A DNA stretch of 64,000 nucleotides from Deltaproteobacteria bacterium. Its GTDB lineage: Bacteria > Desulfobacterota > GWC2-55-46. Below are positions 20,484 through 26,168 of this stretch, piece after piece (position 1 is the first letter of the stretch; the number at the start of each line of letters is the position of its first letter). The stretch is taken from the NCBI GenBank assembly GCA_016234935.1, contig JACRNL010000011.1:62001-126000 (forward strand). Reading direction: 5' to 3'. The notes under the pieces are model-generated. The model was not told where the DNA came from, did no database searches, and worked only from the letters and a program-made list of their open reading frames with translations. A program made the translations under genes and the position numbers.

Positions 20484-20514
20484 CAAAGGGATTGAGGTTG
20501 CTGAAAAACATATA

Positions 20515-20602
20515 GCGCTGGGGGAGCCGCAAGGCTGAGAGTTCTCCGAATGGAGATGACCCCGACGACCTGAACCGGGTAATGCCGGCGTAGGAAAGCG
20601 GC
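20515..20602 (+). ncRNA. TPP riboswitch (THI element)
   Basis: Contains the conserved sequence blocks of the thiamine pyrophosphate aptamer in order: GGGGGAGCC, GGCTGAGAG, GATGACCCCGACGACCTGAA, CCGGGTAATGCCGGCGTAGG and AAAGCGG. A terminator follows at 20645, so high TPP should stop transcription of the thiamine operon. Confidence 0.97.
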
Positions 20603-20644
20603 TGAAGGTTGTTTGAATTAAAGACGTTCCATTGCATTATCAGC

Positions 20645-20677
20645 AAAGCCGCCGGTATTTTCGGGCGGCTTTTTTTA
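20645..20677 (+). terminator. Riboswitch-controlled terminator
   Basis: Stem AAAGCCGCC (20645-20653) pairing with GGCGGCTTT (20664-20672), followed by TTTTTA. It is placed between the TPP aptamer and the first gene of the operon, as expected for a transcription-attenuating riboswitch. Confidence 0.9.
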
Positions 20678-20724: not shown

Positions 20725-22113
20725 ATGCGCATAGACGGCAAAAATATAGAGACGCTCCTTGAAAACGGCCCTGCATCAAGGGACGCGGTCTTTGACGTCA
20801 TCAAAAAGGCGCGCGAGGCAAAGGGGCTTGCCATTGAAGAGGCCGCCGTGCTTTTAAGGGCCGGGGACCATGACGCGGTCAGCGCTATCCTTGACGCGGC
20901 AGGCGCGGTAAAGGAGCGCGTCTTCGGCAAAAGGGTCGTCCTTTTCGCGCCGCTTTATCTTTCGAACTTCTGCACGAACGGATGCCTCTACTGCGGCTTC
21001 AGGAGCGCGAACAAAACCGTGGCGCGCAAGGCCCTTGAAATCGAAGAGGTCGTGAAGGAGGCCGCCGCCCTTGTCGAGATGGGTTTTAAAAGGGTATTGC
21101 TCGTCACAGGGGAAGACCCCCGCTGGGGGCTCGATTATATAATCGCCTGCGTAAGGGCCGTCTACGAAAAGACCGGCATGAGGATAGTCCACGTGAACGC
21201 CCCGCCGATGGACGTGGCGGGCTTTCGGGAGCTTAAAAAGGCCGGCGTCGGCGTGTTTCAGGCCTTTCAGGAGACCTATCACAGCGAGACTTATGGAAAG
21301 ATGCACCCGTGGGGCATGAAAAAGGAGTTCGCGTTCAGGCTCGGCGTTATGGACAGGGCGCTGGAAGCCGGGTTTGAAGACGTCGGCATAGGCCCGCTCC
21401 TGGGGCTGTATGACTTTAAATTTGAGATATTATCTTCCATCGCGCACTCGCTGCATTTATATGAAAGGTTCGGCGCGCACGCGCATACCATTTCCGTGCC
21501 TAGGCTCCGCCCGGCTGAAGGCGGCGCTCTTGGCGCTCCGCCGTATCCCGTAAATGACGATGAATTCAAAAAGGCCGTAGCCGTGCTTCGTTTAACCGTC
21601 CCGTCAGCCGGCGTGGTTATCTCGACGAGGGAGCCTGCAGGTCTGCGCAGGGAACTGCTCCATATCGGCGCAACGCAGCTGAGCGCGGCCTCGCGCACCA
21701 ACCCCGGCGGCTATACGAACGGCGGCGGCAAGGAAATCCTTGAACAGTTTTCAACGAACGACCACAGGACGCTTAGCGAGGTGATGGCGTCAATCGTCGA
21801 GGAGGGAGGCCTGCCGAGCCTTTGCACCTCGTGCTACCGCTCCGGCAGGGTGGGCGGCAACTTCACGGAAAAGACCGTTAAAGGCGAGATGGAAAGGTTT
21901 TGCCACGCCAACGCGATACTGACGCTGAAGGAATACATCGCGGACAGTTCAAGCCCCCGCTTCAGGCACGCGAGGGCAGGAAACGGCGTTAAGGGGCTTT
22001 TCCAGGGCGCGCTTAACGCCGCGCTGGATGAGATAAAGGACGAGGCAATGAAAAAGGCCGTTATGGAAAAGCTCAAGGAGCTTGAAAACGGCAAGAGGGA
22101 TGTCTATTTTTGA
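20725..22113 (+). CDS. HydG/ThiH-type radical SAM tyrosine lyase in the thiamine operon
   Basis: Radical SAM enzyme of about 462 residues, expected to cleave tyrosine to p-cresol and dehydroglycine, the thiazole precursor. The SAM-cluster motif is CTNGCLYC (C-x3-C-x2-C). The C-terminal half has CTSCY through ERFC, exactly C-x2-C-x22-C, the auxiliary-cluster signature of HydG, the FeFe-hydrogenase maturase, which ordinary ThiH lacks. Location behind a TPP riboswitch and before thiS/thiG argues for a thiamine role. ATG 20725 follows AAAGGG; the longer frame crosses the terminator. A family B repeat is inserted in frame (SPRFRHARAG). No hydE or hydF is in the window. Confidence 0.9.
   Translation: MRIDGKNIETLLENGPASRDAVFDVIKKAREAKGLAIEEAAVLLRAGDHDAVSAILDAAGAVKERVFGKRVVLFAPLYLSNFCTNGCLYCGFRSANKTVARKALEIEEVVKEAAALVEMGFKRVLLVTGEDPRWGLDYIIACVRAVYEKTGMRIVHVNAPPMDVAGFRELKKAGVGVFQAFQETYHSETYGKMHPWGMKKEFAFRLGVMDRALEAGFEDVGIGPLLGLYDFKFEILSSIAHSLHLYERFGAHAHTISVPRLRPAEGGALGAPPYPVNDDEFKKAVAVLRLTVPSAGVVISTREPAGLRRELLHIGATQLSAASRTNPGGYTNGGGKEILEQFSTNDHRTLSEVMASIVEEGGLPSLCTSCYRSGRVGGNFTEKTVKGEMERFCHANAILTLKEYIADSSSPRFRHARAGNGVKGLFQGALNAALDEIKDEAMKKAVMEKLKELENGKRDVYF
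21954..21980. repeat. Palindromic repeat B1, inside the HydG/ThiH-like CDS
   Basis: CCCCCGCTTCAGGCACG followed by CGAGGGCAGG. Read as S-P-R-F-R-H-A-R-A-G, shortly after the last cluster cysteine. Confidence 0.88.
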
Positions 22114-22123
22114 GGTAACTCCG

Positions 22124-22324
22124 ATGATTATCAGGATAAACGGCATCGAAAGAGAGGTCGAAGACGGCATGACGCTAAAGACGCTTCTTGACTTTCTTAA
22201 AATAAAGACGCATGGCATCGCCGTTGAACTCAATAAAGAGGTTGTTTTGAAAAGACTTTATGCCGGCACGATTATCAAGGAGCGCGACGTGCTGGAGATA
22301 ATACGCATGGCAGGGGGCGGATAA
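22124..22324 (+). CDS. thiS: Sulfur carrier protein ThiS
   Basis: Ubiquitin-fold carrier of the thiazole sulfur as a C-terminal thiocarboxylate. 66 residues; starts MIIRINGIEREVEDG at ATG 22124 with GAGGT upstream and ends in MAGGG, the Gly-Gly tail to be activated by ThiF (not seen here). Shorter than the frame, which opens at 22082 inside the upstream gene. Confidence 0.95.
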   Translation: MIIRINGIEREVEDGMTLKTLLDFLKIKTHGIAVELNKEVVLKRLYAGTIIKERDVLEIIRMAGGG

Positions 22325-22382: not shown

Positions 22383-23153
22383 ATGGCGGACAGTTTTAAA
22401 ATAGGAACAAGGGAGTTCACCTCCCGTCTGATGGTCGGCACAGGCAAATATCCGTCGAATGAAATAATGAAAAAGGCGCTGGATGCGTCCGGGGCTGAGA
22501 TAGTCACGGTTGCCGTGAGAAGGGTGAATCTCGACAGGACCGGCGAGTCCATGCTCGACCACATTGACGCTGAGAGGTATACGCTTCTGCCCAATACCGC
22601 GGCCTGTTACACCGCGGATGAGGCCATACGCACGGCGCGCCTTGGCCGCGAGGCCCTTGAGACCGACCTCGTGAAGCTGGAGGTCATCGGCGATCAAAAG
22701 ACGCTCTTTCCGGACAACGAGGCGCTTTTAGAGGCCGCGCGGGTTCTGGTAAAAGAGGGCTTTCAGGTCATGCCATACACAAACGACGACCCCGTTATGG
22801 CGAAAAAACTCGAAGAGGCCGGCTGCGTCGCCGTCATGCCGCTTGCCGCGCCCATAGGGAGCGGCCTTGGCATAAGAAATCCCCATAACATCATGATCAT
22901 CCTTGAGTCAGCGCGCGTGCCGGTGATAGTCGACGCGGGCGTGGGCACGGCGTCTGACGCGGCCGCGGCAATGGAGCTTGGTTGCTGCGGCATACTGATG
23001 AACACGGGGATAGCCTCGGCTAAAGACCCTGTCTCCATGGCAAGGGCCATGAACCTTGCGGTAGAGGCCGGGCGGCTTGCTTATTTGTCAGGCAGGATAC
23101 CGAGGAAGCTCTATGGAGCGGCGTCGAGCCCGCTGACGGGTTTGATAGAGTAG
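22383..23153 (+). CDS. thiG: Thiazole synthase
   Basis: TIM-barrel enzyme that joins ThiS thiocarboxylate, dehydroglycine and 1-deoxyxylulose 5-phosphate into the thiazole phosphate. Motifs [47 protein letters not shown] and [19 protein letters not shown] are all present. 256 residues, typical. It starts 58 bp after thiS behind GGAGAAGAAAAA. Confidence 0.97.
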
Positions 23154-23220
23154 GCAGGCCGACCCATCCTTCGGATGGGTGCCCCGAAAAGCTCAATTTA
23201 TCGCCGGGAAAGGAGACGCC

Positions 23221-24027
23221 GTGCACCCGATACTTTTTAAATACGGTTTTATCGAAATACGCTTTTACGGCCTCATGTATGTCGTGGCGATACTTTTTGC
23301 AACGTATATCATTAAGCGGGAGGTCGTGCGTAAGGCGATAGGCCTTACTGCCGATGAAGTCGTAAACTTCATAACGTGGACGGTCATCGCCGGCGTCGTC
23401 GGCGCGAGGATATACTATGTTCTGTTTACCTTGGATTATTACACGGCAAATCCCGCCGAGATACCGGCCATATGGCACGGAGGGCTTGCCATACACGGCG
23501 GGCTTATCGGCGGCGCGGCCGCGGCGTGGGTCTACCTTAGAAGGCACGGCGTTGCGTTCTGGCGCATGGCTGACGCGGTGGCGCCGGCGTTGATATTAGG
23601 GCAGACATTCGGCAGGCTGGGCAACTTCATGAACGGCGACGCGCACGGAAGGCCCACCACCATGCCCTGGGGCGTTGTCTTCCCGCCGGGCAGCATCGCG
23701 GGATCCCAGTTTCCCGGCATCCCGCTTCATCCGACCATGCTCTACGAGATGGCTGTCAATTTCTGCATCTTTCTATTCCTGTGGCTGTCCTTGAGGAAGA
23801 GGGATCACAAAGACGGCTTTATATTCGCGGCCTACATCGCGCTCTATTCGTCCGGCCGGTTCGTGGTAGAGGGCTTCAGGGCGGACTCTCTGATGCTCGG
23901 CCCCATCAGGGTGGCCCAGCTTGTAAGCGCGTTCATAGCCGTATCAGTCGCCGTTTTTATCATCAATAGAAGGCTCTGGCAGCCTCAGACAATAGAAGCA
24001 AAAAAAACCAGGAGAAAAAGAAGCTGA
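23221..24027 (+). CDS. lgt: Prolipoprotein diacylglyceryl transferase
   Basis: Inner-membrane enzyme that adds diacylglyceryl from phosphatidylglycerol to the lipobox Cys. Signatures HGGLAIHGGLIGG and GRLGNFMNGDAHGRPT (the Lgt motif) are intact, with about seven membrane segments. Start is GTG 23221 after AAAGGAG; the frame from 23179 includes an intergenic hairpin (23162-23180). It lies inside the thiamine operon between thiG and thiE, so its transcription is probably subject to the TPP riboswitch unless an internal promoter exists. 268 residues. Confidence 0.96.
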   Translation: MHPILFKYGFIEIRFYGLMYVVAILFATYIIKREVVRKAIGLTADEVVNFITWTVIAGVVGARIYYVLFTLDYYTANPAEIPAIWHGGLAIHGGLIGGAAAAWVYLRRHGVAFWRMADAVAPALILGQTFGRLGNFMNGDAHGRPTTMPWGVVFPPGSIAGSQFPGIPLHPTMLYEMAVNFCIFLFLWLSLRKRDHKDGFIFAAYIALYSSGRFVVEGFRADSLMLGPIRVAQLVSAFIAVSVAVFIINRRLWQPQTIEAKKTRRKRS

Positions 24028-24030
24028 CGC

Positions 24031-24702
24031 ATGGCTGATATTTTTAAAGGCTCGCCGCTTTACCTCGTGACGGACAGGCGGCTTTGCAAGGGCAAGGGGT
24101 TGAACCCTCTCAGAGGGTTGAACCCTTTCAAAGGGCTTGTTGCCGCAGTGGAAAAGGCAGTCAGCGCGGGCGTAAGGTTTGTTCAGCTCAGGGAAAAGGA
24201 TTTACCGGCTGGCGAGCTGCTTGCCGTTGCCATGGAGCTCCGCGCGGTTACGTCAAGGCGCGGCGCGATATTTATTATAAACGGCAGGCTTGACGCCGCG
24301 CTCCTTGCGGATGCCGACGGTGTTCATCTGGGGCAGGCTGATTTCGCGCCTGAAGACGCGCGGCCCTTTCTCGCAAAGGGTAAGCTCATCGGCGTTTCGA
24401 CGCATTCGCTGAAAGAGGCCCTGCAGGCCGAAGCAGACGGGGCTGACTACATCACCTTTGGCCCTGTCTGTCATACGCCCTCTAAGGCCGCCTACGGGCC
24501 GCCGGCAGGTTTTGTGGAATTGAAAAAGGCCGCGGACGCCGTTAAGATACCGGTCTTTGCGATAGGCGGCATGAAAAGAGAGACAATAAAAGATGCCCTT
24601 AGCGCAAGTGCAAAGGGCGTTGCCGTTATCACCGCGATACTTGACGGCAATGACGTCGGCGGCAATGTGAAAGAGTTGATGACGGAGCTAACAGGCTGCT
24701 GA
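24031..24702 (+). CDS. thiE: Thiamine-phosphate synthase
   Basis: Couples HMP pyrophosphate and thiazole phosphate. LYLVTDRR opens the barrel; VRFVQLREKDLPAGELL, ADGVHLGQADF, GVSTHSLKEA, YITFGPVCHTPSKA and VFAIGGM are conserved substrate and Mg sites. After the first strand a double family A repeat is inserted in frame (KGLNPLRGLNPFKG, 24096-24135), lengthening a surface loop. The last codons and TGA stop (T-G-C-stop) come from the left end of MITE copy 3. 223 residues. Confidence 0.95.
   Translation: MADIFKGSPLYLVTDRRLCKGKGLNPLRGLNPFKGLVAAVEKAVSAGVRFVQLREKDLPAGELLAVAMELRAVTSRRGAIFIINGRLDAALLADADGVHLGQADFAPEDARPFLAKGKLIGVSTHSLKEALQAEADGADYITFGPVCHTPSKAAYGPPAGFVELKKAADAVKIPVFAIGGMKRETIKDALSASAKGVAVITAILDGNDVGGNVKELMTELTGC
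24096..24135. repeat. Palindromic repeat A3 (two units), inside thiE
   Basis: GGGGTTGAACCC-TCTCAGAGGG joined to TTGAACCC-TTTCAAAGGG. The two units differ at paired positions (CTCTCAGAG versus CTTTCAAAG), so the stem is kept in both. Confidence 0.88.
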
Positions 24703-24896: not shown

Positions 24897-26168
24897 ATGA
24901 CCCAGCTTGAAGCCGCCCGCAGGGGCATTATAACCGGGGAGATGAAGGATGCCGCGCTCAAGGAACGCGTCGCGCCGGAACAGATGCGGGCCATTGTCGA
25001 AGAGGGCGTTGCGGTCATCGTTAAAAACAGGCTGCACCGGAAGATTCCCGCTCTGGCCGTGGGCCGAGGGCTCAAGACAAAGGTGAACGCCAACATCGGC
25101 ACCTCGCAGGACATGATGGACGTCGGCGTGGAGCTTGAAAAGCTCCGTGCCGCCGTGGAGGCCGGGGCGGACGCGGTGATGGACCTTTCAACTGGCGGCG
25201 ACGTGGATAAGATACGAAGGGAGATATTGAAGGAGTCGCCCATCCCGCTTGGAACAGTGCCCATCTACCAGGCCGCCCTCGAAAGCGTTAAAAAAGGCAG
25301 GTCATTCGTCGAGCTTACGGCGGATGAGATTTTCGACGTGATAGAGCGTCAGGCCGAGGACGGCGTTGACTTCATGACCGTTCATTCCGGCATCTCGTTT
25401 GCCTCGCTTGAGCGCGTGAAAAAAGAAGGCCGCATAATGGGAATCGTCAGCAGGGGCGGGGCGCTTACGGCCGAGTGGATGCGGCACAATAAAAAGGAAA
25501 ACCCGCTCTTTGAGGAATTCCCACGCCTTTTGAAGATAGCCAAAAAATACGACGTCGTTCTGAGCCTCGGCGACGGGCTTCGTCCGGGGTGCCTTGCCGA
25601 CGCGACCGACAGGGGGCAGATAGCGGAGCTTATTACCCTCGGAGAACTGGCCGACGTGTGCCGCGCCGGCGGCGTCCAGGTGATGATCGAAGGCCCCGGC
25701 CACATGCCCATTGACCAGATAAAGGCGAATATGCTCCTTCAGAAAAGGCTTTGCAAGGGCGCGCCGTTCTACGTCCTCGGCCCGCTTGTCACGGACATCG
25801 CGCCGGGCTACGACCACATAACATCGGCCATCGGCGGGGCGATAGCGGCATCCGCCGGGGCGGACTTTCTTTGCTACGTGACGCCGTCCGAGCATCTAAG
25901 GCTTCCGGCGGTTGACGACGTAAGGGAAGGCGTCATTGCCGCCAGGATTGCCGCGCACGCCGGAGACATCGCAAAGGGCGTAAGCGGGGCCATGGAAATG
26001 GACTCAAGGCTCGCAAGGGCAAGAAAGGCGCTTAACTGGGAAGAGCAGATAAGACTTTCGATAAACCCGGAAAGGTCGCGCCTGCTGCGCGATTCAAGCC
26101 CCCCGTCGGACTCATCCGTGTGCACCATGTGCGGGAGCCTTTGCGCTTACAAGATGACGGAGGGGTAG
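24897..26168 (+). CDS. thiC: Phosphomethylpyrimidine synthase
   Basis: Radical SAM enzyme that rearranges aminoimidazole ribotide to HMP phosphate. The C-terminal 4Fe-4S motif is CTMCGSLC (C-x2-C-x4-C) in SVCTMCGSLCAYKM. VNANIGTSQ, DLSTGGD, MTVHSGI, VSRGGA, LSLGDGLRPG and EGPGHMP are the conserved active-site blocks. 423 residues, the length of the short bacterial form lacking the N-terminal extension. AAGGAG precedes the ATG by 6 bases. Confidence 0.97.
   Translation: MTQLEAARRGIITGEMKDAALKERVAPEQMRAIVEEGVAVIVKNRLHRKIPALAVGRGLKTKVNANIGTSQDMMDVGVELEKLRAAVEAGADAVMDLSTGGDVDKIRREILKESPIPLGTVPIYQAALESVKKGRSFVELTADEIFDVIERQAEDGVDFMTVHSGISFASLERVKKEGRIMGIVSRGGALTAEWMRHNKKENPLFEEFPRLLKIAKKYDVVLSLGDGLRPGCLADATDRGQIAELITLGELADVCRAGGVQVMIEGPGHMPIDQIKANMLLQKRLCKGAPFYVLGPLVTDIAPGYDHITSAIGGAIAASAGADFLCYVTPSEHLRLPAVDDVREGVIAARIAAHAGDIAKGVSGAMEMDSRLARARKALNWEEQIRLSINPERSRLLRDSSPPSDSSVCTMCGSLCAYKMTEG

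Follow-up and report, generated by a model that had tools for sequence, protein, structure and literature searches.

The radical SAM tyrosine lyase gene in the thiamine operon of the window (the whole stretch of DNA analysed, 64,000 nt) belongs to a third lineage, here called THIW, which lies outside ThiH, is sister to HydG, and is thiamine-linked wherever its context is visible. This form occurs in dozens of bacteria from several lineages, where it takes the place of ThiH across many genomes. Its function appears to be that of ThiH and its build that of HydG, and it falls outside both families as now delimited. The product of the window gene is a predicted 2-iminoacetate (dehydroglycine) synthase. 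Taken as a whole, it is likely a thiazole-pathway tyrosine lyase in the role of ThiH, from a lineage sister to HydG, with a second site that probably passes dehydroglycine to ThiG. Computation shows the genomic setting, the riboswitch, the clade, the conserved residues, the substitution for ThiH and the lack of hydrogenases. The features of the operon and of the gene are as follows.

20510..20613 (+): TPP riboswitch aptamer, RF00059 (cmscan 64.1 bits, E 2.8e-10; gathering threshold 54.3)
about 20645..20676 (+): terminator-like hairpin, then a T run, read from the sequence (AAAGCCGCC...GGGCGGCTTTTTTT)
20725..22113 (+): THIW gene, HydG-type radical SAM tyrosine lyase, an ORF of 462 aa (TIGR03955, TIGR02351, phylogeny, AF2 model)
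20971..20994 (+): radical SAM cluster motif C83-x3-C87-x2-C90, invariant in the THIW, HydG and ThiH groups
21190..21192 (+): His156, residue characteristic of THIW (HydG has Asn; ThiH has Ser, Ala or Gly)
21484..21486 (+): His254, putative equivalent of the HydG dangler-iron histidine, mapped by numbering offset
21823..21903 (+): C-terminal auxiliary-cluster motif C367-x2-C370-x22-C393 (CX2CX22C), residues 367-393
22115..22324 (+): thiS, sulfur carrier (TIGR01683, 65.5 bits; PF02597)
22383..23153 (+): thiG, thiazole synthase (PF05690, 376.6 bits; ThiG phylogeny)
23179..24027 (+): lgt-like gene, called Lgt from sequence alone; relatives carry a homologue in the corresponding place of the operon
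24031..24702 (+): thiE, thiamine phosphate synthase (TIGR00693, 171.8 bits)
24897..26168 (+): thiC, phosphomethylpyrimidine synthase (TIGR00190, 617.9 bits)

The operon thus runs THIW gene, thiS, thiG, (lgt), thiE, thiC, and the placement of the lyase gene between a TPP riboswitch and thiS-thiG in the original prediction is borne out. The hairpin and T run probably form the expression platform, and the riboswitch would control the whole THIW operon. Elsewhere, thiS and thiG adjoin the THIW gene at every locus on a long enough contig, usually followed by thiE and thiC. In 22 of the 24 THIW genomes of the phylum, one TPP riboswitch per genome precedes the HydG-model match by 70-221 nt, and TPP riboswitches are also present in the THIW operons of five public loci, including that of Moorella mulderi. 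In the window and its class the lgt-like gene separates thiG from thiE; in more distant THIW operons it was not seen at that position.

By family models, the window protein scores 410.2 bits against the HydG model TIGR03955, over its curated cut-off of 312.15, and 306.2 bits against the ThiH model TIGR02351, under its curated cut-off of 380. The AF2 model (pLDDT 88, pTM 0.91) was compared with PDB structures in a second pass over Foldseek matches. It matches HydG (PDB 4wcx) with a Z of 51.5 over 446 residues at 43% identity, C-terminal domain included, while the match to ThiH structures ends at about residue 375. HydG (TIGR03955; PDB 4wcx, 4rtb) is like THIW in its full-length fold with C-terminal domain, and also in the CX2CX22C motif, His254 and Asn158; it differs in having Asn156 and Thr177 where THIW has His156 and Val177, in forming a separate clade, and in that THIW sits in a TPP-riboswitch thiamine operon with no hydrogenase partner. 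ThiH (TIGR02351; PDB 7pd1, 7pd2) shares gene context, riboswitch control and tyrosine-binding residues with THIW, and presumably its reaction and its partner ThiG, but lacks the C-terminal cluster domain (14/14) and His254, has Glu158 instead of Asn, and is about 36% identical in the core. NosL, a tryptophan lyase (PDB 4r33, 6htk), likewise folds as a radical SAM aromatic amino acid lyase (Z about 35), but is about 26% identical to THIW in the structural alignment and differs at tyrosine-specific residues that THIW keeps (PMC9046217).

Residue conservation was counted in an alignment of 27 THIW, 83 HydG and 14 ThiH sequences. The original prediction of a HydG-type lyase with a C-terminal C-x2-C-x22-C at 20725-22113 is confirmed in both coordinates and motif: C367, C370 and C393 are present in 27/27 THIW, and no ThiH has the motif (0/14). 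All eight THIW members from the Moorellia keep it as well, so a chance arrangement of cysteines is ruled out. H254 is found in 27/27 THIW, 78/83 HydG and 0/14 ThiH; by numbering offset it lines up with entry residue 265 of 4wcx, which we take to be the dangler-iron ligand of HydG. The THIW signature is H156, present in 27/27 THIW and in neither HydG (0/83; Asn in 83/83) nor ThiH (0/14), and position 177 is Val in THIW as against Thr in 82/83 HydG. In the AF2 model H156 shares a strand with N158, which in 27/27 THIW, as in HydG, occupies the tyrosine-carboxylate position; this is Glu in 14/14 ThiH, corresponding to E158 of TcThiH (PMC9046217). T301, R302, R308, S320 and S323 are invariant in THIW and match the tyrosine-binding residues T299, R300, R306, S318 and S321 of ThiH (PMC9046217). 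Near the cysteine motif, S365, Y371, R375, G377, N396 and E403 are likewise invariant in THIW across several lineages, and within-THIW identity is 0.57 for the motif region and 0.57 for the catalytic core. The Glu128-compensation feature described for HydG (PMC9046217) has no clean mapping onto THIW, the column of P0001 V127 having Val in 52/83 HydG too.

Some other HydG-like sequences depart from this pattern. In a divergent group from one genus of the phylum (g73; L067-L073), most members have a CxxCP motif and Arg replacing the H254 histidine; the genomes mostly also carry HydG and/or ThiH, and the flanking regions retrieved showed no HydE. Five HydG variants (L038, L039, L074, L075, L076) have C-x2-G-x2-C, the second Cys having moved to give C-x5-C-x19-C, an arrangement reported for a Clostridium autoethanogenum HydG (PMC9431212). 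HydE is near three of the five, and the genome carrying one of them (G028, with L074) also has HydF and an [FeFe]-hydrogenase.

A lyase tree was built on the radical SAM core, omitting the C-terminal domain, and rooted on NosL. ThiH (100/99), THIW (95/83) and HydG (87/89) each form a clade, and THIW is joined to HydG at 82/83. Exclusion of THIW from the ThiH clade is strongly supported. The exact joining of THIW with HydG has moderate support, because the NosL outgroup branch is very long and in a larger quick tree the THIW branch itself received an SH-aLRT value of 41. The tree is compatible with either gain of the C-terminal domain by THIW and HydG or its loss by ThiH. A tree with ThiH, HydG and NosL had been proposed along with the original prediction, which would have been refuted by a place within ordinary ThiH and a motif common there; instead ThiH is separate and lacks the motif. 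The suggestion that a HydG had been recruited to thiazole synthesis in this genome also gives way, to a distinct sister lineage. In the ThiG tree, 33 THIW-linked and 21 ThiH-linked sequences separate at 100/100, also within the class of Moorella.

A scan of 297 genomes of the window's phylum found canonical ThiH in 64, THIW in 24, and both in none, against 5.2 expected to have both (P 0.002, about 0.009 by genus). Among 23 phylum genomes with neither, one had a full-strength ThiG match and 22 had no convincing ThiG, so ThiG accompanies THIW or ThiH rather than HydG; convincing ThiG was also absent from all six tested genomes carrying HydG alone. None of the 24 THIW genomes has an [FeFe]-hydrogenase. 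HydE over the cut-off is missing from 22 and present in two, both of which have a separate HydG, and HydF was absent from all six THIW genomes of the phylum tested for it (G000, G079, G119, G197, G090, G054). Beyond the phylum, a scan of public genomes gives a lower bound for the distribution: THIW is found in at least Moorella mulderi and contigs titled Nitrospiraceae, Deltaproteobacteria and Deferribacteres, although titles of records from uncultured genomes may mislead and the contig titled Deltaproteobacteria has a ThiG sequence identical to that of a phylum genome already counted. Of 22 genomes of Moorellia (Bacillota), eight have THIW plus a separate HydG, five have canonical ThiH, and none has both lyases; taken by itself, this class, with its few independent lineages, gives no significant exclusion (P 0.12). 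The separate HydG adjoins HydE in seven of the eight, and in the eighth its contig ends early.

The genome containing the window (2.15 Mb, rated 100% complete) was examined as a whole by family (profile) searches. The HydG model matches in three places: the window gene, a better-scoring HydG (540 bits) located on another contig, and, adjoining this HydG, a HydE-type protein with a HypC domain (PF01455) at its N terminus (269.6 bits).

9575..12446 of L005, contig C9 of the window's genome (-): true HydG and HypC-HydE fusion, with PF01455 at the fusion's N terminus

These searches found no [FeFe]-hydrogenase, HydF or HypD in the genome, and no further ThiH candidate. With no other HydG- or ThiH-type match, only the window gene, leaving aside the separate HydG, qualifies as a candidate tyrosine lyase for thiazole synthesis. 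That no hydE, hydF or [FeFe]-hydrogenase gene is visible, as first noted, is thus correct within the window; genome-wide it is incomplete, since another HydG and a HydE (as the HypC fusion) exist, while hydF, hydA and a second thiH, which it had been suggested to look for, are indeed missing. The contig C9 HydG (L005:9575-10987) has an enlarged loop in its auxiliary motif, C-x2-C-x29-C as against x22. A HypC-HydE fusion adjoining HydG also occurs in another genome of the phylum (G079, L081) without [FeFe]-hydrogenase, HydF or HypD, as well as in two records of Micrarchaeota (L163, L165) and one of Nitrospirae (L134). HydG with this fusion and no hydrogenase could possibly represent an uncharacterised Fe(CO)2CN-type pathway.

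For cluster content, the fate of dehydroglycine and docking with ThiG we infer the following course. At the radical SAM site, tyrosine would be cleaved to p-cresol and dehydroglycine, as the conserved tyrosine-binding residues suggest. Dehydroglycine would then travel down the barrel toward the C-terminal domain, a movement toward the C-terminal end that has been proposed for HydG and ThiH (PMC9046217). There the three cysteines would bind another [4Fe-4S] cluster, and His254 would probably mark a dangler-type site. HydG splits dehydroglycine into CO and cyanide at its second cluster (PMC11736057); unlike in HydG, dehydroglycine in THIW would not be split for export, and the second site would have to be silent for cleavage because the thiazole product needs dehydroglycine intact. 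It would be held near that site and then handed to the co-evolved ThiG. The second cluster site is retained and probably used in holding dehydroglycine or passing it to ThiG. A more specific form of this reading, a working second site that binds uncleaved dehydroglycine, shields it from hydrolysis and loads ThiG, with His156 among the residues setting the outcome, is proposed tentatively. A conserved HydG-like second site fits CO/cyanide formation in vivo equally well.

The main rival to the holding of dehydroglycine keeps the ThiH role and sees the second cluster as vestigial or as serving structure alone, by closing off the end of the barrel or offering ThiG a docking surface. It has in its favor that canonical ThiH catalyses without a C-terminal cluster (PMC9046217; domain absent in 14/14) and that a second cluster in HydE is reported to be dispensable (PMC9431212). 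However, H254, S365, Y371, R375, G377, N396 and E403 are invariant along with the cysteines, and the motif region is conserved as strongly as the catalytic core, which suggests that the second site is more than a remnant; we consider a purely structural role rather unlikely, if still a serious contender.

The remaining explanations give up either the ThiH role or the distinct lineage. That an ordinary ThiH is at hand, with a motif common in ThiH, agrees with the operon context only and is hardly conceivable given the separate ThiH clade (100/99), the domain missing from 14/14 ThiH and a score under the ThiH cut-off; nesting of the window protein in ordinary ThiH is ruled out by lyase tree, domain content and model scores. 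A true HydG, in the thiamine operon by chance and still supplying some organometallic cofactor with Fe(CO)2CN or free CO/cyanide, would account for the score over the HydG cut-off and for the retention of all second-site ligands, but is made very improbable by the position of THIW outside the HydG clade, by His in 27/27 THIW in place of the HydG-invariant Asn156, by the scarcity of partners in THIW genomes ([FeFe]-hydrogenase 0/24, HydE 2/24), and by the separate HydG in both HydE-bearing THIW genomes and all eight of the Moorellia. The other option raised originally, a single enzyme that serves thiazole synthesis as well as a pathway dependent on Fe(CO)2CN, could draw on the intact second site and on the orphan HydE-type protein, the HypC-HydE fusion, of the window's genome. 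Next to the fusion, however, lies a HydG of its own, so that dual use of THIW is unnecessary; HydE over the cut-off is missing from 22/24 THIW genomes and [FeFe]-hydrogenase from all 24, the eight Moorellia each have their own HydG, and under TPP control expression answers to nothing but thiamine demand. A bifunctional enzyme therefore seems about as improbable as the chance HydG.

No earlier description of a HydG-type ThiH was found in the open-access literature; subscription journals were mostly outside the search, and novelty is thus unproven. Every THIW of the 297-genome scan scores over the cut-off of TIGR03955, the NCBIfam HydG model, so automatic annotation would label them as hydrogenase maturases, and by this model alone hydrogenase-free genomes would be credited with a hydrogenase maturase.

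HydG and ThiH both make the reactive intermediate dehydroglycine, which HydG splits to CO and cyanide but ThiH has to leave whole. With the second-site ligands of HydG and apparently the job of ThiH, THIW is a natural comparison for finding the residues that commit dehydroglycine to CO and cyanide. It raises the question of what job the second site does where no hydrogenase gets built, and adds a third branch from which the divergence of the tyrosine lyases can be reconstructed.
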